IMG/VR virus record: IMGVR_UViG_3300017956_006678
Location: 1 to 64,000 of that record
DNA from: a virus
Length of the DNA stretch: 64,000 nt
Reading direction: 5' to 3' (one strand)
In this document: piece after piece, positions 4,501 to 56,329 of the stretch
How positions within the stretch are numbered: position 1 is the first letter of the stretch
How the letters are laid out: every line of letters begins with the position of its first letter
Notes under the pieces: model-generated
Told to the model about the DNA's origin: nothing
What the model saw: only the letters and a program-made list of their open reading frames with translations
The model's database searches: none
Translations under genes and position numbers: made by a program

Positions 4501-4601
4501 TGGAAATTGTAATGCCAGTAGGTAAATATGTTAGCAAGTTAAGTGAAAATAAATCTAAAACAGCTAAAGAAATAATAACAGCGATTAAAAAACTGATTTA
4601 G
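1599..4601 (+). CDS. Large unknown protein (1000 aa), probable virion or head-associated protein
   Basis: The open frame extends upstream to 1563, but ATG 1599 immediately follows the previous stop and is the likely start (1000 residues). The N-terminus is a short basic amphipathic helix (MLTEKMIRKIISNRIKAKI), followed by an Ala/Pro/Thr-rich linker at about residues 25-65. The rest is a mixed, soluble, multi-domain sequence with no recognised catalytic motif. A second basic helix of similar type (SYIRSEIQKIL) occurs near residue 470. Size, linker and coupling to the preceding gene suggest a structural or packaged protein, but no family is recognised. The 3' end overlaps the convergent gene at 4585-5007 by 17 bases, leaving no room for a classical terminator. 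Confidence 0.7.
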   Translation: MLTEKMIRKIISNRIKAKIEEGLQPGSAAHAAVNVAPATPATATSTTTAGSVVPGSSGTVGASRIIYSQPTDDTSFPKLGHSDKQEFDALANILEIERNNITGFDPSEPSLENDIMQAIMKKINDDEDAARGAEEIFGDPGGIEAKLRSFYTKDITPKDLFGASDPDVQTALTGFTAALPYNPTITSTTKWMSGDPVRNNNYRPFYWIKFMVEKNFDLSGLKATSVKYDNKGRPIFDAKNLDDFSSQTEEVFGELYDIFETQYREITVDVYQGGGMRGVLGYLDDNEVLAYSVLLKKLIENDIDSEKLPMTRMFFAYLGASEWLGDASLGGVKQEALGIYAVGEDGRYVEAFNNRTIDITNVDSATVASGDIISDDAQQFYKMAYDMTKEAGSLLSRAMRLPADVDDSIKNQQLVVRKILERTPGYNASLAIKDLDIKSGNIKAYKEQIEVDLGSFEVLLKGKKEEYGSLNESYIRSEIQKILSEKKKTKSNKYQGVKLDATFTNMPDANGYVLIYPRPQPSVDMITLPRIHTSTTDTKGSQPKTAYELAWYASFWETNATAISNKYFMSTNDPDFPEQMARHIHALYSSSNVSEFNLEKVIVVKATDLFRLSKKLNAGTPPSGLAITPGVTPGTISATDINTFNTWFYSQDFILEFNACKESFNSLNLGILQFMKKKDPMGKDLYDYMSFNKDKFNIGKDMGTKYGDALKIPSADTVDPVEAKKLEDIRDAINKMYEYFKGMDGFDAGARNTALEKERDDADKKIEFAIKSPDMQKNHPTFVQALQTLALRKFNKNSASFKDVVGLSTNFHTFGPRFGYKPQVHGPGLLKLVMDLASMSEVNPRDKIKSTAVYSGAVIDLGDFVTKIIQNPDTVLVPAYIPTSPNYTVNPTRAENALSEFSNLLKDSSNTLNQPIKIKLDVSGGITGLKLDKIEGRLGGNIKIGLRRWVKRSLIPSFTAIDPACTQMEIVMPVGKYVSKLSENKSKTAKEIITAIKKLI

Positions 4602-5007
4602 ATTTTCTAATTGATTCGTAAATTCTTTTTCTATCGTCGCTACTTTTTGCAAATAATTTAAGAAGTTCTCCTGCTCGAGCATTTGCTTGATCTTCATGAA
4701 AACCCCCGGCATCTTGAATATGACCTATAAGTAAGCCTGTTTGATCTTGCATCATATGGGTCATTTCATGTGCAATACTTCTCATAATGTCAGGAAGAGC
4801 TCTTCCTTTACCGTATACGCGACATGTATTGTTTCCGACTTCGTAAAGTGCTGTTGTTGTTATTCCATGTTTAGGTCTATCAGTTACTACATAGACATTG
4901 AAAGATCCATTTATAGGTAATTCTGATGCACAGAAATTACAAAATTCACCGAGGTAATTTAATTGCTGATCGTCTATATTTAGTGATTTATCAACGAACA
5001 ATTTCAT
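4585..5007 (-). CDS. HExxH zinc peptidase (minigluzincin-like)
   Basis: A 140-residue protein with the zinc-binding motif HEMTH at residues 80-84, inside an aliphatic helix (SIAHEMTHMM). A downstream Glu-rich segment (HEDQANARAGE, about 104-114) could supply the third ligand. No signal peptide is seen, so it is likely cytoplasmic or virion-packaged. It resembles small phage and bacterial minigluzincin or SprT-like peptidases, but the exact family is uncertain. Its start overlaps the 3' end of the 73-residue gene upstream on the same strand (ATGA), part of a three-gene minus-strand unit that also encodes a serine protease. A virion maturation role is possible but unproven. Confidence 0.68.
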   Translation of the reverse strand: MKLFVDKSLNIDDQQLNYLGEFCNFCASELPINGSFNVYVVTDRPKHGITTTALYEVGNNTCRVYGKGRALPDIMRSIAHEMTHMMQDQTGLLIGHIQDAGGFHEDQANARAGELLKLFAKSSDDRKRIYESIRKSKSVF

Positions 5008-5225
5008 TTTTGAAGTTCCTCTGCTAGTATTTTTTCACCTTCTTCTTTTGAGAAGGTTACTTTTTGTTTGGATCCATCTTCAGCTTCATATTCTTCTTCA
5101 CCTTTTGATGCAGCGTCAGCATGTGCAATTCTATCTTGTTTTTGTGAAGGTGTCATTTCTTCATTAACAAATTTTTCATTGTTATAGTATCTTTTAATAA
5201 AGTTCCTGATATCAGATCTTTTCAT
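5004..5225 (-). CDS. Small charged protein, unknown function
   Basis: A 73-residue highly charged protein with a basic N-terminal helix (MKRSDIRNFIKRYY) followed by a Glu/Lys-rich, probably disordered body. The IRxxI-type N-terminus is similar in style to that of the 1000-residue protein at 1599-4601. It overlaps both neighbours by four bases, so it is translated as the middle gene of a coupled unit between a trypsin-like lipoprotein and an HExxH peptidase. A role as an inhibitor, pro-peptide or targeting partner for one of those proteases is a guess from context only. Confidence 0.55.
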   Translation of the reverse strand: MKRSDIRNFIKRYYNNEKFVNEEMTPSQKQDRIAHADAASKGEEEYEAEDGSKQKVTFSKEEGEKILAEELQK

Positions 5226-6046
5226 AAGTTTTCCTTTAAAAATTGTTTAATTGCTTCTGGCTTTGGACCTACTGCTAGATTGTTAAAGTCGACAGCAGCT
5301 TTAGCTATTATACTAACTATCTCGCCTTTTCCATTAATGACTGAACTTCCTGAGCTTCCAAATGTTGCTGGTATTGTAAAACTACATTCATGACTATTAC
5401 AACCTGCAAATTTGCCTTGATAATGTTGTCTTATTTCATCTTCATGTGACCATTGTGGTGCTGAGATTGCATAAATTTCTTCTCCAATATCTGGGGCTTT
5501 ATTTGCTACTTTCATATTTTTTGCATATTTATAAAATTTTGATTCGAATTCAATTAGACATAGATCATCTTTTTCATTCATGATAGGTTTTTTCTCTATT
5601 AGATAATCGTTACCCATAAATGTTGCATACATTCCAACTAAAGGGTCTTTTTCAAAGATTAATCCTGTAGCGTCCATTATATCTTCTGTGTTTAGAGTTT
5701 TACACCAATGAGCCGCTGTTAATACATTAATTTTTTCTTTGTTAACATTTACTACATAACCTGAGGCTGATGTAAGTGGAACTAAAGGATCATAGCATAG
5801 ATCACTTTTATCTTCATCTACATAACAGATTGAGTTGAAGTTATTACTGTCTCTTGTCATGACAAAAGAAGTTAGAAACACAAAGTTTTGATTGTGAAGA
5901 ATTTTATTTTTGTTTTTTAATTTAAAATTTAAATATTCAGCATTTAGTACGTCTTTTGGTTTGCTATATTTGTTATTGACACAACATCCTACTTGTACGA
6001 CAAATAAGAAACTTATCATAGCCAAACCTATAATTTTTTTAAACAT
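5222..6046 (-). CDS. Trypsin-like serine protease, exported lipoprotein
   Basis: A 274-residue protein starting with a basic and hydrophobic signal sequence that ends in a lipobox-like VQVGC, with the lipidated Cys at residue 21. The S1-type catalytic triad is readable: His113 in LTAAHWC, Asp161 in DDLCLIEF, and Ser232 in FGSSGSS. It should therefore be an active endopeptidase anchored to the envelope facing the periplasm. AGGGGT provides a ribosome site. It is first in a three-gene minus-strand unit with a small charged protein and a zinc peptidase. An exported lipid-anchored serine protease is unusual for a phage; the target could be a host envelope protein or a superinfecting phage, but this is inference. 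Confidence 0.8.
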   Translation of the reverse strand: MFKKIIGLAMISFLFVVQVGCCVNNKYSKPKDVLNAEYLNFKLKNKNKILHNQNFVFLTSFVMTRDSNNFNSICYVDEDKSDLCYDPLVPLTSASGYVVNVNKEKINVLTAAHWCKTLNTEDIMDATGLIFEKDPLVGMYATFMGNDYLIEKKPIMNEKDDLCLIEFESKFYKYAKNMKVANKAPDIGEEIYAISAPQWSHEDEIRQHYQGKFAGCNSHECSFTIPATFGSSGSSVINGKGEIVSIIAKAAVDFNNLAVGPKPEAIKQFLKENL

Positions 6047-6058
6047 AATTTACCCCTA

Positions 6059-6066
6059 TATAAATA
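6059..6066 (+). promoter_or_regulatory. TATAAATA late-promoter-like octamer
   Basis: An exact match to the T4 late promoter word TATAAATA, lying in an intergenic gap. It is of interest because the window encodes a gp55-like sigma (40718-41485). However, the next plus-strand start is over 200 bases away and the DNA is extremely AT-rich, so chance is likely. It is embedded in a small inverted repeat, CCTAT-ATAA-ATAGG. Confidence 0.2.
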
Positions 6067-6284: not shown

Positions 6285-7454
6285 ATGTCAATTTTTAAAG
6301 AACATAAATCTTCAGCAGATCGCTCAGCAACTGATAGAAGAAGACATAAAGAAAAGATTGAAAGAGCTATCAAAGATGGAATTCATGATATAGTTGCGGA
6401 AGAAAGCATAATTGGACAAGACGGGAAAAAGAGAATAAAAATACCAGTAAGAGGTATTAAAGAATATCAGTTTATTTATGGGAAAAATAATCCTAGAGTT
6501 GGATCTGCACAAGGTAAAGATGTGAGAAAAGGTCAGCAAGTTTCTCCTCCTAAAAATAAAAAGAAAAATGGAGGTCAGCCTGATAAACCTGGGAACACAG
6601 CAGGTGAAGAATTTTATGAAGTTGATATATCTTTAGATGAATTAGCAAAATATCTTTTTGATGATTTAAATCTTCCCGATTTAGAAAAGAAAAGTTTTCC
6701 TAATATATTCAATAACACTATTAAGAGAAAAGGTTATAGAAAAGAAGGAATAAGACCTAGATTATCTAAAAAAGAAACTATTAAAAGAAAAATAAGGCGT
6801 AAGAAAGCGTCTATTAAAGCAGGAACTTATGATCCTGAAAGTGGAGAACGTTTTCCATTTCATAAAGATGATTTAAAATACAAGCATATTGAAATAACTA
6901 AAAAGAATGTCACAAATGCTGTTATATTTTTTATTATGGATACTTCAGGATCTATGACAAAATCAAAAAAGTTTAAAGCACGTTCGTTCTTTTTCTTACT
7001 ATATCAATTTATTAGATATCGTTACGATAAAACAGATATTGTATTTATTTCACACACAACTGAAGCTAAAGAAACAAATGAAGATGAGTTTTTTGGAAGA
7101 GGTTCAAGTGGTGGAACTTATATAAGTTCTGGTATAGAAAAAGCAGTTGATATTATGGAAAAAAGATATCCACCTACTAGTTGGAATTTATATACTTTTC
7201 ATTGTTCTGATGGAGATAATTGGATTGAAGATAATGATAAGGCATTGGATATAAGTAAGAAGCTAATTGATATGTGTCAATTATATAGTTTTATAGAAAT
7301 AACTGATGGAAGAAAAGGAACAGCAGGTTGGGGTGAACCTATGTCTGAAGTCTATAAACCTTTAGAATGTAAGAATTTTAAAATTGTTGAAATAGATTCT
7401 AAGGAAGATATATGGGAAGAATTTAAAAAACTTTTTGGAAGTAATAATGACTAA
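6285..7454 (+). CDS. yhbH: DUF444 family VWA-domain protein (YhbH/YeaH-like)
   Basis: A 389-residue protein matching the DUF444 family. It has a Lys/Arg-rich N-terminal half, including a family-typical basic stretch around residues 150-185. A von Willebrand A-type domain follows, with the metal-site signature DTSGSM at about residue 219 and a conserved SDGDNW further on. In bacteria this protein (YeaH in Escherichia coli, YhbH in Bacillus) is encoded with the AAA+ protein PrkA/YeaG and linked to stationary-phase, starvation or sporulation physiology. Here it heads an operon with SpoVR and PrkA, its usual cellular partners. Length is slightly below the roughly 390-430 of cellular forms and key motifs are intact, so it is likely functional. 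Confidence 0.9.
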   Translation: MSIFKEHKSSADRSATDRRRHKEKIERAIKDGIHDIVAEESIIGQDGKKRIKIPVRGIKEYQFIYGKNNPRVGSAQGKDVRKGQQVSPPKNKKKNGGQPDKPGNTAGEEFYEVDISLDELAKYLFDDLNLPDLEKKSFPNIFNNTIKRKGYRKEGIRPRLSKKETIKRKIRRKKASIKAGTYDPESGERFPFHKDDLKYKHIEITKKNVTNAVIFFIMDTSGSMTKSKKFKARSFFFLLYQFIRYRYDKTDIVFISHTTEAKETNEDEFFGRGSSGGTYISSGIEKAVDIMEKRYPPTSWNLYTFHCSDGDNWIEDNDKALDISKKLIDMCQLYSFIEITDGRKGTAGWGEPMSEVYKPLECKNFKIVEIDSKEDIWEEFKKLFGSNND

Positions 7455-8790
7455 AAAATATACAGAACATTGGAATTTTAGTGAGCTCAAAGAGTGGGAT
7501 GAAATAATCTGTAAAAAAGCTAAAGAATTTGGTTTAGATTGGCATCCAATTAATTATGAAGTTTGTGATTATTTCGAAATGATTGGTCACATGTCATATC
7601 ATGGTATGCCTAGTCATTATAATCATTGGAGTTATGGTAAGTCTTTTGAGGTAACACACCAACAGTATAATATGGGAATGCAAGGACTTCCTTATGAATT
7701 AATTATTAATAGCAATCCTTCAATTGCTTATCTTATGAGAGAGAATCCTCTTTATCTTCAGATTCTTATTATGGCACACTGTATTGGTCATAGTGATTTT
7801 TTTAAAAATAATAGAACTTTTAGAAATACATCACCTGAAAATATTGTATCAAAAATGCGTAATGCAAAAAGACGTATATATGAATATTCAGAAGATCCTA
7901 TGATAGGTGCAGAAAAGGTAGAAAGTTTTTTAGATGCATTACATACAATTAGGTTTCAAACTGAAAGATATGAAATGCCTAGATTGACTCCTGAAGAAAA
8001 ACAAAATAATTTTATTAAAAAGATTAATAAGAGTAATTTTGTACAAGAAAAAAGAAATAAATATGTTGATATGATTCGTAAAAAGTCATTTATTGGAACA
8101 GATAGAGACTTATTAGGATTTTTATTAGATTATGGTGAATATGAAAATTGGCAATTAGATTTAATTAATATTGTTAGAGACGAATCACATTATTTTATAC
8201 CACAAATTAAAACAAAAATTCTTAATGAGGGATGGGCATCTTTTTGGCATTACAAATTACTGCATGAATTAGAAATACCTCAAAAATTTCATATTCCTTT
8301 TTTGAAAATGCATAATGCTGTTGTTAGGCCTCATATTGGTGGAGTTAATCCATATCATTTGGGATTTTATTTATTCCAAAAAATAGAGAGAGAACAAGGA
8401 TTAGAAGAATGCTTTTTTATAAGAGAAATACATGATGATGAATCAGCATTAAGAATGTATTTGCAAGAAGAAGATATGGTTGAGTTAAACTTTTTTGAAT
8501 ATCAACGTAATGCAAAGTCTGGAGGTGCTAAAGTTACTGAAGTTTCAGATAAAGATGGTTGGAAAAAAGTAAAACACCAGTTAATAAAAAACACAGGAAT
8601 TAATTCAATACCTTTGATTTATGTTAGCGATTTAGATAAGAAAAATAAAATTTTAGAATTAAAACATGAACATGATGGAAGAGATTTAGAGTTAAAATAT
8701 GCTGAAGAAGTAGTTAAAAGTATTAAACAAATATGGGATGGCGAGGTAAAACTATTTACGATCGTCGAAGAAGAGATGTGGGAAATTTAA
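7447..8790 (+). CDS. spoVR: SpoVR family protein
   Basis: A 447-residue protein matching the SpoVR/YcgB family along its length. It shows the family-typical His-rich N-terminal half with GHMSYHGMPSHYNHWSYGK at about residues 54-72, a histidine-rich segment near residue 115 (MAHCIGHSDF), and EGWASFWHY near residue 262. The start at ATG 7447 overlaps the end of the DUF444 gene by 8 bases and is preferred over an upstream TTG at 7435, which would lie over the ribosome site. SpoVR is involved in spore cortex formation in Bacillus, but its homologues in non-sporulating bacteria accompany PrkA and YeaH. The biochemical activity is not established. The phage copy is close to full cellular length (about 460-510). 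Confidence 0.9.
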   Translation: MTKKYTEHWNFSELKEWDEIICKKAKEFGLDWHPINYEVCDYFEMIGHMSYHGMPSHYNHWSYGKSFEVTHQQYNMGMQGLPYELIINSNPSIAYLMRENPLYLQILIMAHCIGHSDFFKNNRTFRNTSPENIVSKMRNAKRRIYEYSEDPMIGAEKVESFLDALHTIRFQTERYEMPRLTPEEKQNNFIKKINKSNFVQEKRNKYVDMIRKKSFIGTDRDLLGFLLDYGEYENWQLDLINIVRDESHYFIPQIKTKILNEGWASFWHYKLLHELEIPQKFHIPFLKMHNAVVRPHIGGVNPYHLGFYLFQKIEREQGLEECFFIREIHDDESALRMYLQEEDMVELNFFEYQRNAKSGGAKVTEVSDKDGWKKVKHQLIKNTGINSIPLIYVSDLDKKNKILELKHEHDGRDLELKYAEEVVKSIKQIWDGEVKLFTIVEEEMWEI

Positions 8791-8804
8791 ACATAGGAGC
8801 TTAA

Positions 8805-10739
8805 ATGAGTCAGAAAAAATTTCTAGAGTTGATTAAAAATCAACGTGAAAATAGTAAAACAGAAAAATTTAAAGGAACTTTTTTAGATTATTTGGAAGTT
8901 CTAAGCGAAAATAAAAATATTGTTATGTTAGCACATAAAAGATTGCATGATACAATAGATAAACAAGGTGTTTCTACGCTTGATGTAGGCGATGAGAATT
9001 ATAGAAATTATTTCAATGGTGAAAAGATTAAAAAATATCAGTACTTTGAAAAAGAATTTTTTGGAATGGAATCTGTAATTCACAAATTAATGAGATTCTT
9101 AAAATCAGCAGCATTAAAAGGTGAAGAAAGTAGACAAGTTCTTCTTTTAATGGGACCGGTTGGTGCTGGTAAATCTGCTTTGGTTGAACATGTTAAAAGT
9201 TCTTTAGAGATGGCAGATAGAATATATCATCTTGAAGGATGTCCAGTACGTGAGGAACCTTTGCATCTTTTACCTAGAAACCTAAGGGGCCAGTTTGAAG
9301 AGATGCTAGGAATACATATAGAGGGCGATCTATGTCCTATATGTCGTCATAGATTGATGGATGAATTTAATGGTGAATACGAAAAATTTCCAATAGTTCA
9401 ATCATCATTTTCACAAAGAGGTAGAAGAGGTATCTCAGTAGTTCCGCCTATGGATGCTAATAGTCAAGATGTATCAGTCCTTATTGGTACAGAAGATATT
9501 AGTAAGCTAGATCTTTATCCTGAAGATGATCCACGTGTACTTTCACTTAATGGTGCATTTAATGTGGGTAATCGTGGAATTGTAGAATTTGTTGAAGTAT
9601 TTAAAAATGAAATTGAATTTCTACATACAATGTTGACAGCAACACAAGAAAAACGTGTACCTTCGCCAGGTAAGAATGATATGCTTTATTTTGATGGGGT
9701 TATATTATCCCATTGTAATGAATCAGAGTGGAACAGATTTAAAGCAGAACACACTAATGAGGCTATTTTGGACAGGGTTTTAAAGATAGAAGTTCCCTAT
9801 GTTCTAGAATTAGATCAGGAGATGAAAATTTATCAAAAAATGATTAATCGATCTGATTTTAAGTCGGCTCATATTGCTCCCCACACTATTAAAATCGCAT
9901 CTATGTTTAGTATCATGAGTCGACTTAAACCCTCTGCTAAGTGTGATCTTCTTACCAAGCTTAAGATATACAATGGTGAAAGTGTTATAGAAAAAGGAAG
10001 AGTTAAAAATATTGATATTAAAGATTTGCGTGAAGAAGCAAGACGTGAAGGTATGGAAGGTATATCTACAAGATTCATTATGAAGTCACTAGATCGTGCA
10101 TTATCAGACTCAGATAAAAATATGATCACTCCTATTAATGCTATTGATAGTTTGGTAAAACAAGTTAAAGAACAAATTATTGATGATAATACACGTGAGC
10201 ATTATTTAGAAATACTACAAGATATTATCAGAGAAGAGTATCTTAGAATACTTGAAACAGAAATTGCTAAGGCATTTATCACTGCTTACGAAGAACAAGC
10301 ACAGTCGTTATTTGATTCTTATCTAGATAATGCAGAATCTTATACAACTAGATCTAAAGTAAAAGATAAAATTACTCGAGAAGAAAGAGAACCTGATGAA
10401 AAATTCATGAAGTCAATTGAAGAAATGATTGGTGTTGTAGGTTCTGCAAAAGATGGATTTAGAAATGATGTTACAGCTTATATGTTTGCTAAATTAAGAA
10501 AACAAGAAACTGTTGATTATCGATCTTATGGGCCTCTTAAAGAAGCAATAGAACAATATTTGATAACTTCAGTAAAAGATATATCGCGTATTGTTACCAA
10601 GTCAAAGTCTAGAGACGACAAACAAAAGAAAAAATATTCAAATATGATTGAAACGCTTATTGAAGAATACGGTTATAATGAAAATAGTGCAGAAGAAATT
10701 TTAACTTATGCAGCTAATAATCTTTGGAGAGACTCATAG
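8805..10739 (+). CDS. prkA: PrkA/YeaG family AAA+ serine protein kinase
   Basis: A 644-residue protein, the same size as cellular PrkA/YeaG (about 630-645). The N-terminal AAA+ domain has a Walker A motif GPVGAGKS at about residues 116-123. A CPICRH motif near residue 178 and the conserved family C-terminal region complete the PrkA architecture. ATG 8805 has an AGGAG site 5 bases upstream. In bacteria PrkA acts with YeaH/YhbH in starvation and stationary-phase responses; kinase activity and, for some members, ATP-dependent proteolysis have been proposed. Here it follows YhbH and SpoVR by 14 bases and precedes a GroEL-like protein by 4 bases. Full length and intact motifs argue for an active enzyme rather than a decaying capture. 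Confidence 0.92.
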   Translation: MSQKKFLELIKNQRENSKTEKFKGTFLDYLEVLSENKNIVMLAHKRLHDTIDKQGVSTLDVGDENYRNYFNGEKIKKYQYFEKEFFGMESVIHKLMRFLKSAALKGEESRQVLLLMGPVGAGKSALVEHVKSSLEMADRIYHLEGCPVREEPLHLLPRNLRGQFEEMLGIHIEGDLCPICRHRLMDEFNGEYEKFPIVQSSFSQRGRRGISVVPPMDANSQDVSVLIGTEDISKLDLYPEDDPRVLSLNGAFNVGNRGIVEFVEVFKNEIEFLHTMLTATQEKRVPSPGKNDMLYFDGVILSHCNESEWNRFKAEHTNEAILDRVLKIEVPYVLELDQEMKIYQKMINRSDFKSAHIAPHTIKIASMFSIMSRLKPSAKCDLLTKLKIYNGESVIEKGRVKNIDIKDLREEARREGMEGISTRFIMKSLDRALSDSDKNMITPINAIDSLVKQVKEQIIDDNTREHYLEILQDIIREEYLRILETEIAKAFITAYEEQAQSLFDSYLDNAESYTTRSKVKDKITREEREPDEKFMKSIEEMIGVVGSAKDGFRNDVTAYMFAKLRKQETVDYRSYGPLKEAIEQYLITSVKDISRIVTKSKSRDDKQKKKYSNMIETLIEEYGYNENSAEEILTYAANNLWRDS

Positions 10740-10743
10740 GATT

Positions 10744-12030
10744 ATGAATAATAGCGAAAAATACATTGATTTAATTAAAGAAAATTCGCTTAAAAATTCA
10801 TTTGTGAAGAATATCAGTGAGTTTAAGAATAATCATCTAAATAAAGTAACACTTTATGATAACGTAGATATTAAAAATAACTCACTGAACTTTTTTAACT
10901 ATAAGTTTGATGATAATTCTAAGACCCTTAAAAGAGTAATAGACTATGAACTTGCAAGAATAGAATTAAATTCTAAAGATTTAGGTTCACTATTAACCGA
11001 GTGGCTAGTTGATTTTTATGTAAAACACCCATATCAGGCTTATGCTTTAGATAGAGAAGTATGTAAAGATTTTATAACAGAAAATATTTTAAATAAGTTG
11101 AATAATTTAGTAGAAAGACCGAATAAAAATCATTTAAATGAAATAATAAAAAATATTGAAAGTAAAAAAAATAAAAACATTATTAAGAGTTTAATTAAAA
11201 ATATTGACGCAGATGACACTGTTTTTGTAAAAGAATCATTCAATGAAAAAACTTTTATTAAAAAAACAGATCAAATTAAATTTAATTTTGAATTTGACAA
11301 TTCTTTTTTACTTGACAAAAAAGAATGGCATGCAGAAAATTACAAATATATTATTATAGATGGGTTTATTGACTCTGTAGGTGAAATACATCACCTACTT
11401 CAAAAGTCTTATGAAGATAAAGAATGTTATGTTGTTTTTTGCAAGGGAATGCATGAAGAAGTTAAGGCAACAATACTTCAGAATCTTAAAAGAAAAACAA
11501 TCAATGTTATGCCTGTTTCTCTAAAAGTAAATGAAGAAAATGTGAATATTCTAAATGATATTGCTGCATGTCACGATAATGATATTATATCTGCACACAA
11601 AGGAGATGTAATATCAATTGCAGTAAAAAGAGAGCTTAAGAGAGGTAAGCGAATAACTATTGATAGTGATGGTATTGTATTACAATATAAAGACAAAAGA
11701 TTGAAAGATAAACAATTAGAATATTTAACCCAAAAAGTAAACGATACAATAATTGGTGATCCTAATATTGATTATTTAAATAAGAGAATTAAAAATTTAA
11801 ATTCTAAAAAAGTTGAAATTTTTTTAGATTCAAGATTTACTAAAAGAGAAAGAACAGAATTGGATGCTTATTTAAGATCTATAAACTATATTAAATCAGG
11901 AGCAGTATTTTTTAAAGATAATAAAAGAATATTAAATTATAGAGAATTGATTGTAGGAATAGTAAAGTTTACAAGTTTAATAAAGACAATAGAAAGTTTT
12001 GGTTGTGCTTTAGTTGAGGAAAATAAATGA
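10744..12030 (+). CDS. Divergent GroEL/HSP60-like chaperonin, truncated
   Basis: A 428-residue protein from ATG 10744 (an upstream in-frame start at 10708 lies inside prkA). From about residue 175 onward it can be aligned by eye with GroEL segment by segment. YKYIIIDGFIDSVGEI matches the apical-domain ILLADKKISNIREM strand and helix. EEVKATILQNLKRKTINV matches EALATLVVNTMRGIVKV. LNDIAACHDNDIIS matches LQDIATLTGGTVIS. RGKRITIDSD matches QAKRVVINKD, and YLNKRIKNLNSKKVEIFL matches the intermediate-domain KLQERVAKLAGGVAVIKV. The DGTTT nucleotide motif and the GGG hinge are not conserved, and most of the C-terminal equatorial domain is missing (GroEL is about 548 residues). It may bind substrates or poison or adapt the host chaperonin rather than fold by ATP cycling. 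Assignment is by eye and needs a profile search. Confidence 0.65.
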   Translation: MNNSEKYIDLIKENSLKNSFVKNISEFKNNHLNKVTLYDNVDIKNNSLNFFNYKFDDNSKTLKRVIDYELARIELNSKDLGSLLTEWLVDFYVKHPYQAYALDREVCKDFITENILNKLNNLVERPNKNHLNEIIKNIESKKNKNIIKSLIKNIDADDTVFVKESFNEKTFIKKTDQIKFNFEFDNSFLLDKKEWHAENYKYIIIDGFIDSVGEIHHLLQKSYEDKECYVVFCKGMHEEVKATILQNLKRKTINVMPVSLKVNEENVNILNDIAACHDNDIISAHKGDVISIAVKRELKRGKRITIDSDGIVLQYKDKRLKDKQLEYLTQKVNDTIIGDPNIDYLNKRIKNLNSKKVEIFLDSRFTKRERTELDAYLRSINYIKSGAVFFKDNKRILNYRELIVGIVKFTSLIKTIESFGCALVEENK

Positions 12031-12524
12031 AAGTTTTAAATAGTGTTAAGCATTTATTGGAATGTCATTGTACTCTTAAAATATATGAAAATAAAGATAA
12101 AAATTTAGATAATCATTTATTTCACAAATTTCCTGTGTATTCTAAATACGACAATGAAACAGGGAAGTTTATAGAGAAAATAGTACAATGTAATAATTGT
12201 CAAACATTGCATAAAGTTATTGATGTTTGTAAATCTGAAATCATTCCAGGAGGAAAAGATACAGATATGACGCTATCAACTATAGAAGATATGGAACTTC
12301 AACTACCGAGTAAATTATATAATTTTCTTGTAGGTCAAAATACTGATATAACAACTTTTGAACATGCATTAGATGTTATTGATAATGAATGTTGGGGATC
12401 TCAAATAGTAATTGCTAGAGAATTAATCGATTTTAAATATCACATTAAAGTTTTAGAAATTAATGGCGAAAACAAATTTAAAATTATTAAAAAAGTCATT
12501 GAAGATGAAATTAACTTAGGATAA
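12027..12524 (+). CDS. Unknown protein with CxC/CxxC putative zinc site
   Basis: A 165-residue protein whose N-terminal half contains CHC near residue 14 and CNNC near residue 58, a spacing that could form a zinc ribbon. A HKFPVYSKYDNETGKFIEK-like segment lies between. The C-terminal half is mixed alpha/beta with no recognised motif. It overlaps the GroEL-like gene by four bases (ATGA), so it is translated with it. The Cys pairs resemble those of small phage metal-binding or DNA-replication accessory proteins, but no family is recognised. Its position in the PrkA operon is the only functional hint. Confidence 0.6.
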   Translation: MKVLNSVKHLLECHCTLKIYENKDKNLDNHLFHKFPVYSKYDNETGKFIEKIVQCNNCQTLHKVIDVCKSEIIPGGKDTDMTLSTIEDMELQLPSKLYNFLVGQNTDITTFEHALDVIDNECWGSQIVIARELIDFKYHIKVLEINGENKFKIIKKVIEDEINLG

Positions 12525-12528
12525 AGAA

Positions 12529-12807
12529 ATGAATATAGGAAAAACAGATACAGAACTAGAAGTCGATAAAATGATTGAATGTCGACAAATAGTAAAAAAT
12601 CTCATAAAATTTGGTCTATCTGAAAAACAGAAAGTACAAATCATGAGATTGTTAGCAATAGAGTTAGAATCTAGAGATGCTATGAATATTATCATAGAAG
12701 CTGTAGAAAAAATCAAATCTTTAGACGAAAATGTTAAATTTAGTTTAACAGAAGATAAAATTGATTATAATAATAATAAGCAAAGTAAAAAGCTTTTAGA
12801 CATCTAA
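12529..12807 (+). CDS. Small helical protein, unknown function
   Basis: A 92-residue protein, apparently all alpha-helical (LEVDKMIECRQIVKNLIKFG and the following helices), with a polar Asn/Lys-rich C-terminus. ATG 12529 follows the previous stop by four bases. No motif or family is recognised. It lies between the Cys-pair protein and the Hc1-like histone in the same transcription unit. Confidence 0.6.
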   Translation: MNIGKTDTELEVDKMIECRQIVKNLIKFGLSEKQKVQIMRLLAIELESRDAMNIIIEAVEKIKSLDENVKFSLTEDKIDYNNNKQSKKLLDI

Positions 12808-13356: not shown

Positions 13357-14670
13357 GTGCGTAAAACTTTTATACTTGACACGAGCGTCCTCTTATACGA
13401 TAAAACATCAATTCATTCTTTTCCAGAAAATGATGTTGTATTACCTATAGTTTCATTAGACGAATTAGATAGATTTAAGTCTAAGAAAGGAATTATAGGA
13501 GAAAATGCAAGATATGTCAATAGATACTTAGATGATTTGAGAAAAGAAGGTGGGTCAATACACGAAGGTGTTGAATTAGAAAATGGTCAGACAATAAGAG
13601 TTGCGCTAGAAGGTTATTCTGACATTCCTAACGGTCTTAATGGTGATGATGCTGATAATAAGATGATAGCGCTAGCTAAAAAAATGACTTTAGAATCTGA
13701 CAAGTCTGTAGTTATGATTACAAAAGACATTAATTTTAGAGTTAAATGTGATGCTGTAGGTGTTAAATCTGAAGATTATTACAAGGATCAGATTATTGAT
13801 GACAATGATAAATCTTACAAGGGTTTTGTTGAATTAGATCTAGGACAAGACTTAAGTCACTTAATTGATATGCTTTATAATGAAGAGGATGATTTAACAC
13901 AAGACATTGAAGACTTAATTGGTAGAAAAACCTTTCCTAATGAATTTATATGTCTTAAATCAGGAAGTCAATCCATTTTAGCACAAAATAAAAGAGGAAT
14001 CATTAAAAAAATGGAAAAGCTTTCATTAGAAGACTTTATGGGAATCAAAGCAAGAAATAGAGAGCAGAGTTTTGCTTTAAATCTTTTGCTTGATGACAAC
14101 GTTCCTTTGGTTTCTTTGACCGGTATTGCTGGGTCTGGTAAAACTTTTTTAACATTAATGGCGGGAATCGAGGGTATAAATAAAGGAAAATACAAAAGAA
14201 TCGTAATTACACGTAATATTCAACCTGTAGGTAGGGATATTGGTTTTTTGCCAGGTGATGCTGATGATAAAATGTTACCTTGGATTGCACCAATTATGGA
14301 TAATTTTAGACAAGGTATGAAAGATAAAGACTTGTCTTATTTTGAAGCAATGAGAAGAACTGGTCAAATAGAAATTGCACCATTAGCTTTTATGAGAGGA
14401 AGAACATTTTCTGAAACATTTTTAATTATAGATGAATCTCAAAATAGTTCTATTCATGAACTAAAAACAGTCATAACAAGAATTGGAGAAGATTCAAAGG
14501 TAATTCTTCTTGGTGATACAGATCAAGTTGATACTCCTTATATTGATTCACTCTCAAACGGTTTGACCATAGTTTCAGAAAAATTTAAAGATCAAGAAAT
14601 GGCAGGACATATCCAGCTTCAAAAAGGTGAAAGATCTAAATTGTCATTTTTGGCATCAAAAATACTTTAA
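13357..14670 (+). CDS. phoH: PIN domain-PhoH ATPase fusion protein
   Basis: A 437-residue protein with an N-terminal PIN-type nuclease domain (FILDTSVLLYD at residues 4-14, ILDTS acidic start, and further acidic residues before about residue 150). A C-terminal PhoH-type RecA/SF1-like ATPase follows, with Walker A GIAGSGKT near residue 258 and Walker B LIIDESQN near residue 360. This is the PhoH2-type architecture, associated with RNA unwinding and cleavage; PhoH genes are common in marine phages. The start is GTG 13357 preceded by TTGGAG. It is the last gene before the glycan island. Motifs look intact, so both RNase and ATPase activities are plausible. Confidence 0.9.
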   Translation: MRKTFILDTSVLLYDKTSIHSFPENDVVLPIVSLDELDRFKSKKGIIGENARYVNRYLDDLRKEGGSIHEGVELENGQTIRVALEGYSDIPNGLNGDDADNKMIALAKKMTLESDKSVVMITKDINFRVKCDAVGVKSEDYYKDQIIDDNDKSYKGFVELDLGQDLSHLIDMLYNEEDDLTQDIEDLIGRKTFPNEFICLKSGSQSILAQNKRGIIKKMEKLSLEDFMGIKARNREQSFALNLLLDDNVPLVSLTGIAGSGKTFLTLMAGIEGINKGKYKRIVITRNIQPVGRDIGFLPGDADDKMLPWIAPIMDNFRQGMKDKDLSYFEAMRRTGQIEIAPLAFMRGRTFSETFLIIDESQNSSIHELKTVITRIGEDSKVILLGDTDQVDTPYIDSLSNGLTIVSEKFKDQEMAGHIQLQKGERSKLSFLASKIL

Positions 14671-53014: not shown

Positions 53015-56000
53015 ATGCCTAAAATTACAACAAGCACAACAACAAGTTTGGCCAAATCAATAAAAGCAAACGATACAACGAATGAAACACTTGGATTGGC
53101 TACAACATCCCTTTCGGGTTTTCCAACATCAACAATTAATGTTAATGGATTTACAGTATCTTTTTGGGTTAAACTAGACGGATCTAGCTCAGATGTAAGA
53201 CATGTTTATCATGACGATACAAGGTCAGGAGTGCATGGAGGTGTTTGGTTCCAAACAGCAAATCAGTTATATTTTAGAGCAGTTAATTCTGGAGGAGCGT
53301 ACGGTAGATATTGGTCAATTGATATTGCAGATTATCAGGAATGGGTTCATGTCGCAATAACTTGGGACGGCGACATGAACAATGGTGATACAGAATTGTT
53401 TGTTAACGGTGTTTCTCAGGGTGCAGGAACCAATGCACTCGGCACAGGGTCAGGAACAACTCAGGCAATAACTGACTTATACATTTATGATAAACAAGGT
53501 GTTTTAGATGGTTTTGAACTAAAAGGTGCCCTTGTCGACTTTGCAATGTGGAGTAAGGAATACACTAGCTCACAAATTCAAAACATTTATAATGGTGGCA
53601 TTTATAATGATTATTCAGAAATGGGAGGTGTATACACACCCAACCTAATATTATGGTATAGACTAGGTGAAGAATCAACAATTAGTAGTTTAACAACAGG
53701 CGATAGCTTAAGCGCAGGAACACAATTTGCTGCAGCACATACTAGATCAGGTGTTAGTGGCGCTACGCTTACAGCACAGTCTAATATAGATATGGAAATT
53801 GTAGAAGGTCCATACCAAGTAACAACAACGACAACAACAACTTTTTCCGGAATAACTAGTGATACGCCTAGAAGAACATTGAGAGCAAAGGATGCAGTAA
53901 GTGGACAATATCCTACTATCGCTAGAACTGGCGATTCTTCTAGAATGGGAAATTTTAATATTAATTTTGATGATAGGAATACAATTGTATTTGAAGAAAA
54001 TACTACACTTCTTGAATATCCGCATTTAGGACTTTATCAGTCTTCTCATCCCCTCTTAAAATCAAACGCTTCAGCACATTCTACAACAAATTCTGGAGTT
54101 ATAGTAACAACAGGAAGTTTGGTCAAGGGTATCTCTGATGATTACTTATTAAAGGGTGATAGGGTATTAATAGGGTCAAGGTTAGAAAATGATTTAATAG
54201 CCAACGGCGAAGCTCTATCAGGATCTGTCAATATTACTCCATTTGATGAAAGTAGAATTAATTTAGGAACTAGTACATTTTACATGACAGGAACTGCAGA
54301 AGACGTCTATCCTGGTTTTAGTAGTCGTCTTCACGACAAAACACAAATCGTCATTGATATGACAGCAAATGAGACGACATACTTTGGAAATACTAATAAA
54401 TCAAATGATTCTTCTAGTCCTTACTTATATCAGTCCGATACTTCAGATGTAAAACAACCTTATATGGGTTATTACAATCATATACTTAAAAGATGGGAAT
54501 CTATAGGTCAAGGTTTTGGAATGAACCAGACGTATGGTACAGAATCAAATTTAATCGATATAGTAAAAAAAGCTCAAATTGGATTTGATGGTTGTATTGC
54601 AAAAATAGCTACAGGATCAGATCAAACAGGTAATGATTATCGTCTTTTTAATAATGATACACTTAATAGTACAATGAGGCCTATTTCGACTTTTGGTTTT
54701 CCTTTTGATGGAAGATATCATGCAACTGGGAGTCAAATAATTGACATGAGTCAATATATTAATGCACCTTTTGTTGTTGAAAAAGTTGTTTTTGAATTTA
54801 ACGCACTTATAGAAACAGGTGATAGCCCAGGTACTGGTGATACTGACACAAATGGTTATAGATTAGGAGCAGGATATGGAGACCCGTCAGGCATAGGTAA
54901 TTCTACAGATAGTATTTTTACAAATGTTGAAATTAGAAACTATAACTTTTTCTTGTTAAGACAATTTGAAAGTAAATTTGAAAAAAGTTGGGAAATAATT
55001 ACAGGATCTGGAAGTCCTACTAATGAATCGGGTTTTCGATATGGAAAATTTACAGTAACAAGTAGTATTCCCGGGACTTTTGGGTTAGGAGGCGATAGTA
55101 GCACAATTACATTGGTTAAAGATGAAAGAGAATTAATCACATATGGACAACTTATTGATTATCATGTTGATGCATCAAACCCTCTTACAAATGGATCAGG
55201 TTTTACAAAACAAGACGTTTTAAATAGTCCTCTTATCGCTGGGAGGGATGCAATATTTGAAAGAGAAACAGCATCTTTCGGTCAAACATCAGGTTCATCT
55301 TTAACGGGAAGTTTTATTGTCCCTTGTAATGTTAGGCATACTGCAGGAATACTTCCTGCAAATAGAATGAGAGTTTACACAACAAAAGGGACAGTAACTG
55401 AACTAGCTTTATGGATGCAAAATAGATATTCTAGTAGAGGTAGAGATACTTTAGATAAGTCCTCTAGAGCTTTAGTTAATGGTCATGGTTCAGTTTATAA
55501 AGGAGTTACTGAGAGATTACAACCTTTTTCATCTACAGAAGAGGCATTTCCAATAACACCTTCAGCAGCTGAAACGCTGGATGATCATTCTCCCTACGTT
55601 TTGTTTCCGCAAGATAAAATCATTATAGGTTTTCAATATCCGCCACCTGAAAATTTAAAAACAGCTGGGGGTGTATTTGATGATGTTAGATTAAATAGAA
55701 TGGGTTTTAACGGACCAGGAAAAATTACATTATACGGATCGCAAATTAAAGAAAATAAAGAATTTCATGACACGTTAAATCAAAACTTGACAACCTTAGG
55801 TGTCCATGAGGCAATTCATTATGATAACCCAACATTAGATCAATTTTTAGTTGCAACAGAAGCTGAATACAGTGGAAGCTATATGGATACATATGTTAAG
55901 GGTGGCATTGGATCAGTTGCTAGAAGTATTGTGGGGACAGGCGGTAATGAAATTAGCGGATCTTTGCAGAGATTTAGAGGATTTGATAATAGACAACAGA

Positions 56001-56329
56001 GATATTATGATTCTGTGTTAATTGATATTGAATCTATGTTTAAAGCTGATGGTTATAAGATGTTAGATGGAACAGCAATAGGGTTGTCTGATCCAAGAAT
56101 TAGATTAGGGTCTATTACAACAGTAAGTTCTGGAGAATTTGTTCATAATTCTTGGCATGCAATATTTCCTTTTGAACCTCGTTATCATAATTCTGCTAAA
56201 AAAATATCACAAAAAATTTATCTTTATCATGTAGGAGCAGAAAATGATAGTACAGGAAATTTATTTAATCGCTCCAATTTTAGTTTTTTAGGAACAGATG
56301 TTACAACTGACGCAGATTTAGAAAAATGA
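53015..56329 (+). CDS. Giant LamG-domain virion protein, ends at an in-frame TGA
   Basis: A 1104-residue protein. After a Thr-rich N-terminus, a LamG domain spans about residues 45-225 (FTVSFWVKLDG to YTSSQIQNIYNGG), a fold used for carbohydrate binding. The remainder is beta-rich with no catalytic motif. The ORF stops at TGA 56327-56329, but the same frame remains open for 17 sense codons and then through 56381-56782. The continuation has sequence typical of the C-terminus of such phage proteins (RPKGFKYGIINALPQF). The intact product would be 1255 residues if the TGA is read through, or this is a split or broken gene. Confidence 0.7.
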   Translation: MPKITTSTTTSLAKSIKANDTTNETLGLATTSLSGFPTSTINVNGFTVSFWVKLDGSSSDVRHVYHDDTRSGVHGGVWFQTANQLYFRAVNSGGAYGRYWSIDIADYQEWVHVAITWDGDMNNGDTELFVNGVSQGAGTNALGTGSGTTQAITDLYIYDKQGVLDGFELKGALVDFAMWSKEYTSSQIQNIYNGGIYNDYSEMGGVYTPNLILWYRLGEESTISSLTTGDSLSAGTQFAAAHTRSGVSGATLTAQSNIDMEIVEGPYQVTTTTTTTFSGITSDTPRRTLRAKDAVSGQYPTIARTGDSSRMGNFNINFDDRNTIVFEENTTLLEYPHLGLYQSSHPLLKSNASAHSTTNSGVIVTTGSLVKGISDDYLLKGDRVLIGSRLENDLIANGEALSGSVNITPFDESRINLGTSTFYMTGTAEDVYPGFSSRLHDKTQIVIDMTANETTYFGNTNKSNDSSSPYLYQSDTSDVKQPYMGYYNHILKRWESIGQGFGMNQTYGTESNLIDIVKKAQIGFDGCIAKIATGSDQTGNDYRLFNNDTLNSTMRPISTFGFPFDGRYHATGSQIIDMSQYINAPFVVEKVVFEFNALIETGDSPGTGDTDTNGYRLGAGYGDPSGIGNSTDSIFTNVEIRNYNFFLLRQFESKFEKSWEIITGSGSPTNESGFRYGKFTVTSSIPGTFGLGGDSSTITLVKDERELITYGQLIDYHVDASNPLTNGSGFTKQDVLNSPLIAGRDAIFERETASFGQTSGSSLTGSFIVPCNVRHTAGILPANRMRVYTTKGTVTELALWMQNRYSSRGRDTLDKSSRALVNGHGSVYKGVTERLQPFSSTEEAFPITPSAAETLDDHSPYVLFPQDKIIIGFQYPPPENLKTAGGVFDDVRLNRMGFNGPGKITLYGSQIKENKEFHDTLNQNLTTLGVHEAIHYDNPTLDQFLVATEAEYSGSYMDTYVKGGIGSVARSIVGTGGNEISGSLQRFRGFDNRQQRYYDSVLIDIESMFKADGYKMLDGTAIGLSDPRIRLGSITTVSSGEFVHNSWHAIFPFEPRYHNSAKKISQKIYLYHVGAENDSTGNLFNRSNFSFLGTDVTTDADLEK

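Follow-up and report, generated by a model that had tools for sequence, protein, structure and literature searches.

Genes for PrkA, SpoVR, and DUF444 proteins are widespread and linked, and they are associated with stress, while the biochemical job of their products is disputed. In bacteria, the prkA-DUF444 (yeaH/yhbH)-spoVR cluster, represented by yeaG-yeaH of E. coli and by loci in Clostridia and deltaproteobacteria, places three full-length families adjacent to each other and in the same orientation. The cellular YeaG/YeaH proteins have a role in E. coli nitrogen starvation (PMC4664914). Whether PrkA acts as a kinase, a protease, or a remodelling factor is disputed, and the literature is conflicting: PrkA of B. 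anthracis is AAA+-like, with undetectable kinase and negligible protease activity (PMC13001217), while the same paper cites reports of B. subtilis PrkA as a protease and, at an earlier date, as a kinase, which would imply another mode of action. AAA+ ATPases paired with vWA proteins, such as RavA-ViaA and NorQ-NorD, act as protein-remodelling chaperones (PMC9976466, PMC10585395).

A phage-borne trio of these genes is not new, since the Thermus phage phiYS40 and uncultured huge phages already have one. The GenBank record of phiYS40 lists SpoVR, a 'serine kinase', and a 'conserved bacterial protein' matching DUF444, and the Thermus phages phiYS40, YS40_Isch, MN1, and Lalka8 share the order DUF444-SpoVR-PrkA, with SpoVR and PrkA separated by an additional gene in phiYS40 and YS40_Isch. 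All four uncultured huge phages LR756502, LR745206, LR756504, and LR756511 carry PrkA, DUF444, and SpoVR. In the Ralstonia jumbo phage RsoM2USA, SpoVR (ORF28) and PrkA (ORF30) have been published two ORFs apart (PMC8504454); its likeness to the locus described here rests on these two genes, and its order is of the bacterial type. Moreover, spoVR has been noted in marine oxygen-minimum-zone viromes (PMC8940887).

The locus analyzed here lies within a stretch of 64,000 nucleotides (the window) that is part of a 74,587-bp virus record in IMG/VR. Its features are compiled in Table 1.

Table 1. Positions of the trio genes, their neighbours, and further features of the window
Feature	Position	Strand	Length (aa)	Evidence or remark
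DUF444 / YhbH-type vWA protein	6285..7454	+	389	Pfam DUF444 E 4e-112; MIDAS-type residues intact
SpoVR	7447..8790	+	447	Pfam SpoVR E 6e-113 plus SpoVR_C
PrkA	8805..10739	+	644	Pfam AAA_PrkA E 2e-141; PrkA C-terminal domain E 2e-75
g4, divergent GroEL-like protein (putative pseudo-chaperonin)	10744..12030	+	428	Profiles, hhalign, AF2/Foldseek
g5	12027..12524	+	165	Neighbour in 76/80 viral loci and in 0 bacterial trio loci
g6, small protein	12529..12807	+	92	Conserved in part of the relatives
PIN-PhoH protein	13357..14670	+		Pfam PhoH E 4e-51; PHROG 2765 E 1e-102
TATAAATA, T4 late-promoter-like	6059..6066	+		226 nt upstream of the trio
Divergent upstream genes	4585-6046	-		140-aa protein with HEMTH (HExxH) metalloprotease-like motif; trypsin-like protein with lipoprotein-type signal
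Long surface-glycan cluster	14716-40390			Several glycosyltransferases, NeuB, GDP-mannose dehydratase/epimerase types, polysaccharide pyruvyl transferase, methyltransferase, radical SAM/SPASM
Baseplate-wedge genes (T4-type)	44453 and 44994
Tail region	53015-56329		1104	Protein with LamG/concanavalin-like domain; possible host-binding protein

All three trio genes are full length, score far above their Pfam cut-offs, and are adjacent on the plus strand. SpoVR, for instance, reaches 378 bits (SpoVR) and 32.1 bits (SpoVR_C) against cut-offs of 27 and 27.6. Its start codon is the ATG at 7447, which overlaps the DUF444 stop codon (ATGA); a TTG at 7435 is a mechanical ORF start only and was rejected. 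Together with a gap of 14 nt between SpoVR and PrkA, this overlap indicates that the trio is tightly coupled. In PrkA, the Walker A motif GPVGAGKS is unbroken, and P118, G120, K123, and S124 are invariant compared to the E. coli and Thermus-phage homologues. The same comparison leaves the MIDAS-type D-x-S-x-S / T / D residues of DUF444 unchanged (D219, S221, S223, T278, and D309), while H111, H115, E159, E261, H268, and H289 of SpoVR are invariant among 43 phage and bacterial sequences. Thus, the original prediction of a complete and coupled DUF444-SpoVR-PrkA unit with intact motifs is borne out by Pfam matches, the ATGA overlap, and the invariant Walker A and MIDAS residues.

Family assignment is clear-cut for PrkA, in which Pfam and alignment find the AAA_PrkA domain, the PrkA C-terminal domain, and an intact Walker A motif, and which matches PDB entry 9xip ('Serine protein kinase') in phmmer with E 3e-100. 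The best NCBIfam model for DUF444 is TIGR02877 (spore_yhbH) with 415.8 bits, below the equivalog cut-off of 467.95; by its sequence, the window protein is best regarded as YhbH-like and not as a strict TIGR02877 equivalog. The AF2 model of SpoVR has a pLDDT of 87.5, and its fold search against the PDB gave no match at E<=0.001.

A direct scan returned 24 viral contigs with a PrkA 68-100% identical to that of the window, of which 23 hold the whole trio; in the 24th (L024), the trio is incomplete and interrupted by the contig end. If one near-identical contig is set aside, no gene of the neighbourhood is better conserved among the relatives than PrkA (68-94% identity). A profile-guided scan found PrkA relatives encoded on 530 viral contigs. 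The order DUF444>SpoVR>PrkA is present in 78 of the best 80 of these, so that the co-occurrence of all three genes on one viral contig, proposed earlier as a check, is confirmed; the other two read SpoVR>PrkA, with the match near the contig end. Bacterial loci differ: PrkA>DUF444>SpoVR is found at 59 of 80 loci from the genome collection and the rotated phage order at only one, located in the 'Methylococcaceae' MAG TMED69 (L117 / G014:C5; NHDW01000006, 305,838 bp). This contig carries gp23, the trio, and GroEL, and the presence of gp23 indicates a phage contig binned into the MAG, i.e., contamination of a reference genome.

The T4 capsid gene gp23 is also present on 12 of 13 long viral relatives (104-293 kb), and the window itself contains T4-type baseplate-wedge genes; on this basis, the window clade consists of T4-like (gp23) jumbo phages. 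Scans with gp23 or baseplate markers returned mostly fragments. Among the gp23-selected records, that of 273 kb, the only one above 200 kb, has PrkA, and those of 157 kb and 124 kb are without it, as is a distant 205 kb phage found via the baseplate marker. The trio is likely a core gene set of the clade.

These data also bear on whether the trio could be bacterial DNA that entered the data through mis-binning or chimeric assembly. Artefacts of this kind may exist, as the record of Enterobacter phage LAU1 (L034, MN688132) has yeaGH at its edge. The LAU1 YeaG-YeaH is of the enterobacterial type and probably represents host DNA at a prophage edge. For the window trio, however, dozens of contigs obtained from different samples show the same order flanked by phage genes, the long contigs carry a capsid gene, the phage copies have their own clade and gene order, and in the sole 'bacterial' genome with this order the trio shares its contig with gp23. 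Given the order shared by 78 of 80 contigs, gp23 on 12 of 13 long relatives, and the separate clade, we reject chimera, contamination, and chance, and regard host DNA as having virtually no likelihood as the source.

In the PrkA, DUF444, and SpoVR trees, the phage copies form a single clade (SH-aLRT 100, 99, and 100, respectively), which settles for all three genes whether they group on their own, as the original prediction proposed to check. This clade is placed near homologues from Clostridia, deltaproteobacteria, and Flammeovirga, and the nearest cellular PrkAs are 54-61% identical. Each of the three trees also contains the same close subgroups, such as that of the window, L003, and L004, indicating that the trio mostly travels together. 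In the PrkA tree, the sequences of three of the four LR-series huge phages group with gammaproteobacterial homologues and the Thermus phages occupy a separate long branch; the trees are quick searches with SH-aLRT support, in which long-branched sequences (L030 and the Thermus phages) are unsurely placed. The three separate placements argue for at least three acquisitions by phages, namely by the T4-like clade, of the gammaproteobacterial type, and of the Thermus type.

Gene order and neighbourhood distinguish the other phage lineages from the window clade. The LR-series huge phages, three of which thus represent a separate acquisition, have the bacterial gene order and no adjoining g4, and in LR756502 SpoVR lies far away. 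The Thermus PrkAs are only ~33% identical, and no chaperonin gene adjoins the trio. That these phages (L031-L033, L035) share the rotated order despite their separate PrkA branch may reflect convergent rearrangement or a very old common source. Further large viral records (L229-L308; 113-415 kb) form a second group, which has an E. coli-type PrkA. There, the trio is complete and in bacterial order at 66 of the 80 loci scanned, no g4 was found in the DNA around the trio at these 80 loci, and a T4-type terminase domain occurs in 9 of 11 long records.

The trio is under strong purifying selection, with dN/dS of ~0.03-0.10 for pairs with estimable dS, where synonymous sites are near saturation and absolute values are rough. 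In the same pairs, g4 reaches 0.13-0.47, and between the window and L003, PrkA is 94% identical, whereas g4 retains 36%. The trio is a vertically inherited phage gene module. Neither a chimera nor a recent single-host origin with decaying motifs, the two outcomes against which the original prediction was set, is what we find.

The conserved unit extends beyond position 10739 into g4 and g5. As a single sequence, g4 has no Pfam or PHROG match, and its matches to NCBIfam GroEL models are weak (E 4.8e-10) and do not come near the model cut-offs; standard annotation largely misses it. The PHROG 'chaperonin groEL', in turn, is matched by 37 of 48 g4 family members, and the family profile finds solved GroELs in the PDB (E 4e-34). 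In hhalign, g4 aligns to residues 150-414 of E. coli GroEL, comprising part of the intermediate and the apical domain (98.7%, E 4.6e-16). Control profiles with shuffled columns score at most 3.8 bits, compared to 61-120 for the g4 profiles. The AF2 model (pLDDT 90) matches GroEL chains in Foldseek with E 1e-21 and reaches a TM of 0.70 with GroES/Hsp10-bound GroEL conformations, i.e., the overall predicted fold is alike. By profiles and predicted structure, g4 is a chaperonin (GroEL/Cpn60) homologue.

The nucleotide-binding site of g4 differs substantially from that of GroEL. The ATP-site residues D87, T89-91, D398, G414-416, and D495 are lost in essentially all 48 g4s, but retained by full-length GroELs of the same phages. 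Moreover, the C-terminal equatorial part is missing, and most hydrophobic residues of the apical domain that bind GroES and clients are replaced. From its residues, g4 is predicted to be ATPase-dead and does not qualify as a functional GroEL. A full-length GroEL is encoded elsewhere in the genome in all six viral records >=176 kb examined. Full-length GroEL without detectable GroES was observed in G001-G005, G011, and G014:C5; a GroES search of the phage records found none, and g6 has no sequence resemblance to GroES.

The position of g4 is strikingly constant. It lies behind the trio in 79 of 80 viral loci, downstream and on the same strand as PrkA at all 79 loci where both are seen, while the bacterial trio loci scanned contain neither g4 nor a chaperonin nearby. 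In the window and many relatives, g4 begins directly at the end of PrkA or overlaps it. Still, the tie between trio and chaperonin is purely one of gene order, and g4 may be a mere syntenic neighbour of a trio that works by itself, its operon surroundings being frozen by shared phage ancestry. The order of g5, g6, and PhoH is conserved too, PIN-PhoH being syntenic in most relatives with enough flank, and part of the relatives have 200-1800 nt between PrkA and the g4 start. We consider mere synteny unlikely given the invariant strand and position of g4, often directly at the PrkA end, and the far greater variation among upstream neighbours, of which the trypsin-like gene occurs in 26 and the 140-aa gene in 27 of 80 relatives. 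The late-promoter-like TATAAATA is found at a similar distance in the two closest relatives and is absent from most others; just upstream of gp23 it was not found.

The trio, inherited and well preserved, and the g4 behind it do not look like stray host genes and suggest a machine for protein handling that belongs to the phage. Among the explanations weighed, we tentatively favour, at somewhat less than even chances, a phage protein-remodelling (AAA+/vWA) module that works with an ATPase-dead chaperonin paralogue. PrkA would serve as the ATP-driven AAA+ engine and DUF444 as its vWA adaptor, docking clients via the MIDAS metal site, with SpoVR as a third partner or client-handling subunit. During infection, they might jointly remodel specific proteins, much as the MoxR-AAA+/vWA pairs RavA-ViaA and NorQ-NorD do; in these pairs, an AAA+ ATPase gene likewise lies beside a MIDAS-bearing vWA gene. 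This likeness is one of working mode and not of membership: by Pfam, the ATPase is PrkA-type, from another AAA+ family that has a C-terminal domain of its own, and SpoVR has no counterpart in MoxR systems. g4 could act as a passive, ATP-independent client binder or adaptor that passes clients to or from the PrkA engine, and it possibly mixes with the phage's own full-length GroEL. The purpose might be the maturation of phage proteins or the targeted removal or remodelling of host proteins.

A bolder version is possible but rather doubtful. In it, the four genes would encode a new hybrid machine that combines the AAA+/vWA/SpoVR remodeller with an ATPase-dead, fast-evolving, client-selecting chaperonin paralogue, apart from the phage GroEL, and its clients might be phage capsid and tail proteins or host defence proteins. 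As to the favoured remodelling model, the fast evolution of g4 and the slow evolution of PrkA fit a fixed motor bearing a variable part that faces the clients, although frequent recombination of g4 would look the same. Against this model, the trio functions in bacteria with no chaperonin linked to it, and the other phage lineages (Thermus phages, LR-series huge phages, and E. coli-type jumbo records) carry it without adjoining g4, which indicates that the trio alone suffices for phage retention.

The main rival to protein remodelling is that the phage trio supplies or boosts host PrkA, SpoVR, and DUF444 function and thereby keeps a cell that is starved, stationary, or short of oxygen either productive or in controlled arrest during replication of this large phage. 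The original prediction of a starving or dormant host is of this kind, and it is possible by analogy, its basis being the role of the cellular homologues; B. anthracis PrkA, for example, is required for sporulation and osmotic-stress survival (PMC13001217). Yet the phage trio is one deep clade with no recent host exchange, SpoVR and PrkA are not spore-specific but present in non-sporing bacteria such as E. coli, and the constant pseudo-GroEL is left unexplained, which makes us doubt such a takeover of the stress programme. Less probable still, with perhaps an outside chance, is a counter-defence role, in which the trio would suppress host toxin-antitoxin or other abortive responses in infection. 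YeaG does repress the toxin-antitoxin genes mqsRA and dinJ-yafQ during E. coli nitrogen starvation (PMC4664914), and g4 evolves much faster than its neighbours, as an arms-race component would. PrkA, DUF444, and SpoVR, however, evolve slowly, unlike typical anti-defence proteins, and PADLOC gave no match except a weak similarity between PrkA and DolB (E 6e-5).

Our literature search found no paper joining 'auxiliary metabolic gene' with PrkA and, judged by title, no relevant paper on DUF444 and phage. Neither a module of rotated order in a large T4-like clade nor its link to a pseudo-chaperonin thus seems to have been described, a weakly supported statement as subscription papers and preprints lay outside the search. 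The uptake of the trio by phages at least three times implies that the label 'sporulation AMG' given to SpoVR in virome surveys is probably misleading. The strong conservation of the trio beside a degenerate chaperonin in a large phage clade provides a natural clue, namely protein remodelling, to the contested biochemical function of these linked stress genes, and trio and g4 together offer a compact four-gene set for testing it.
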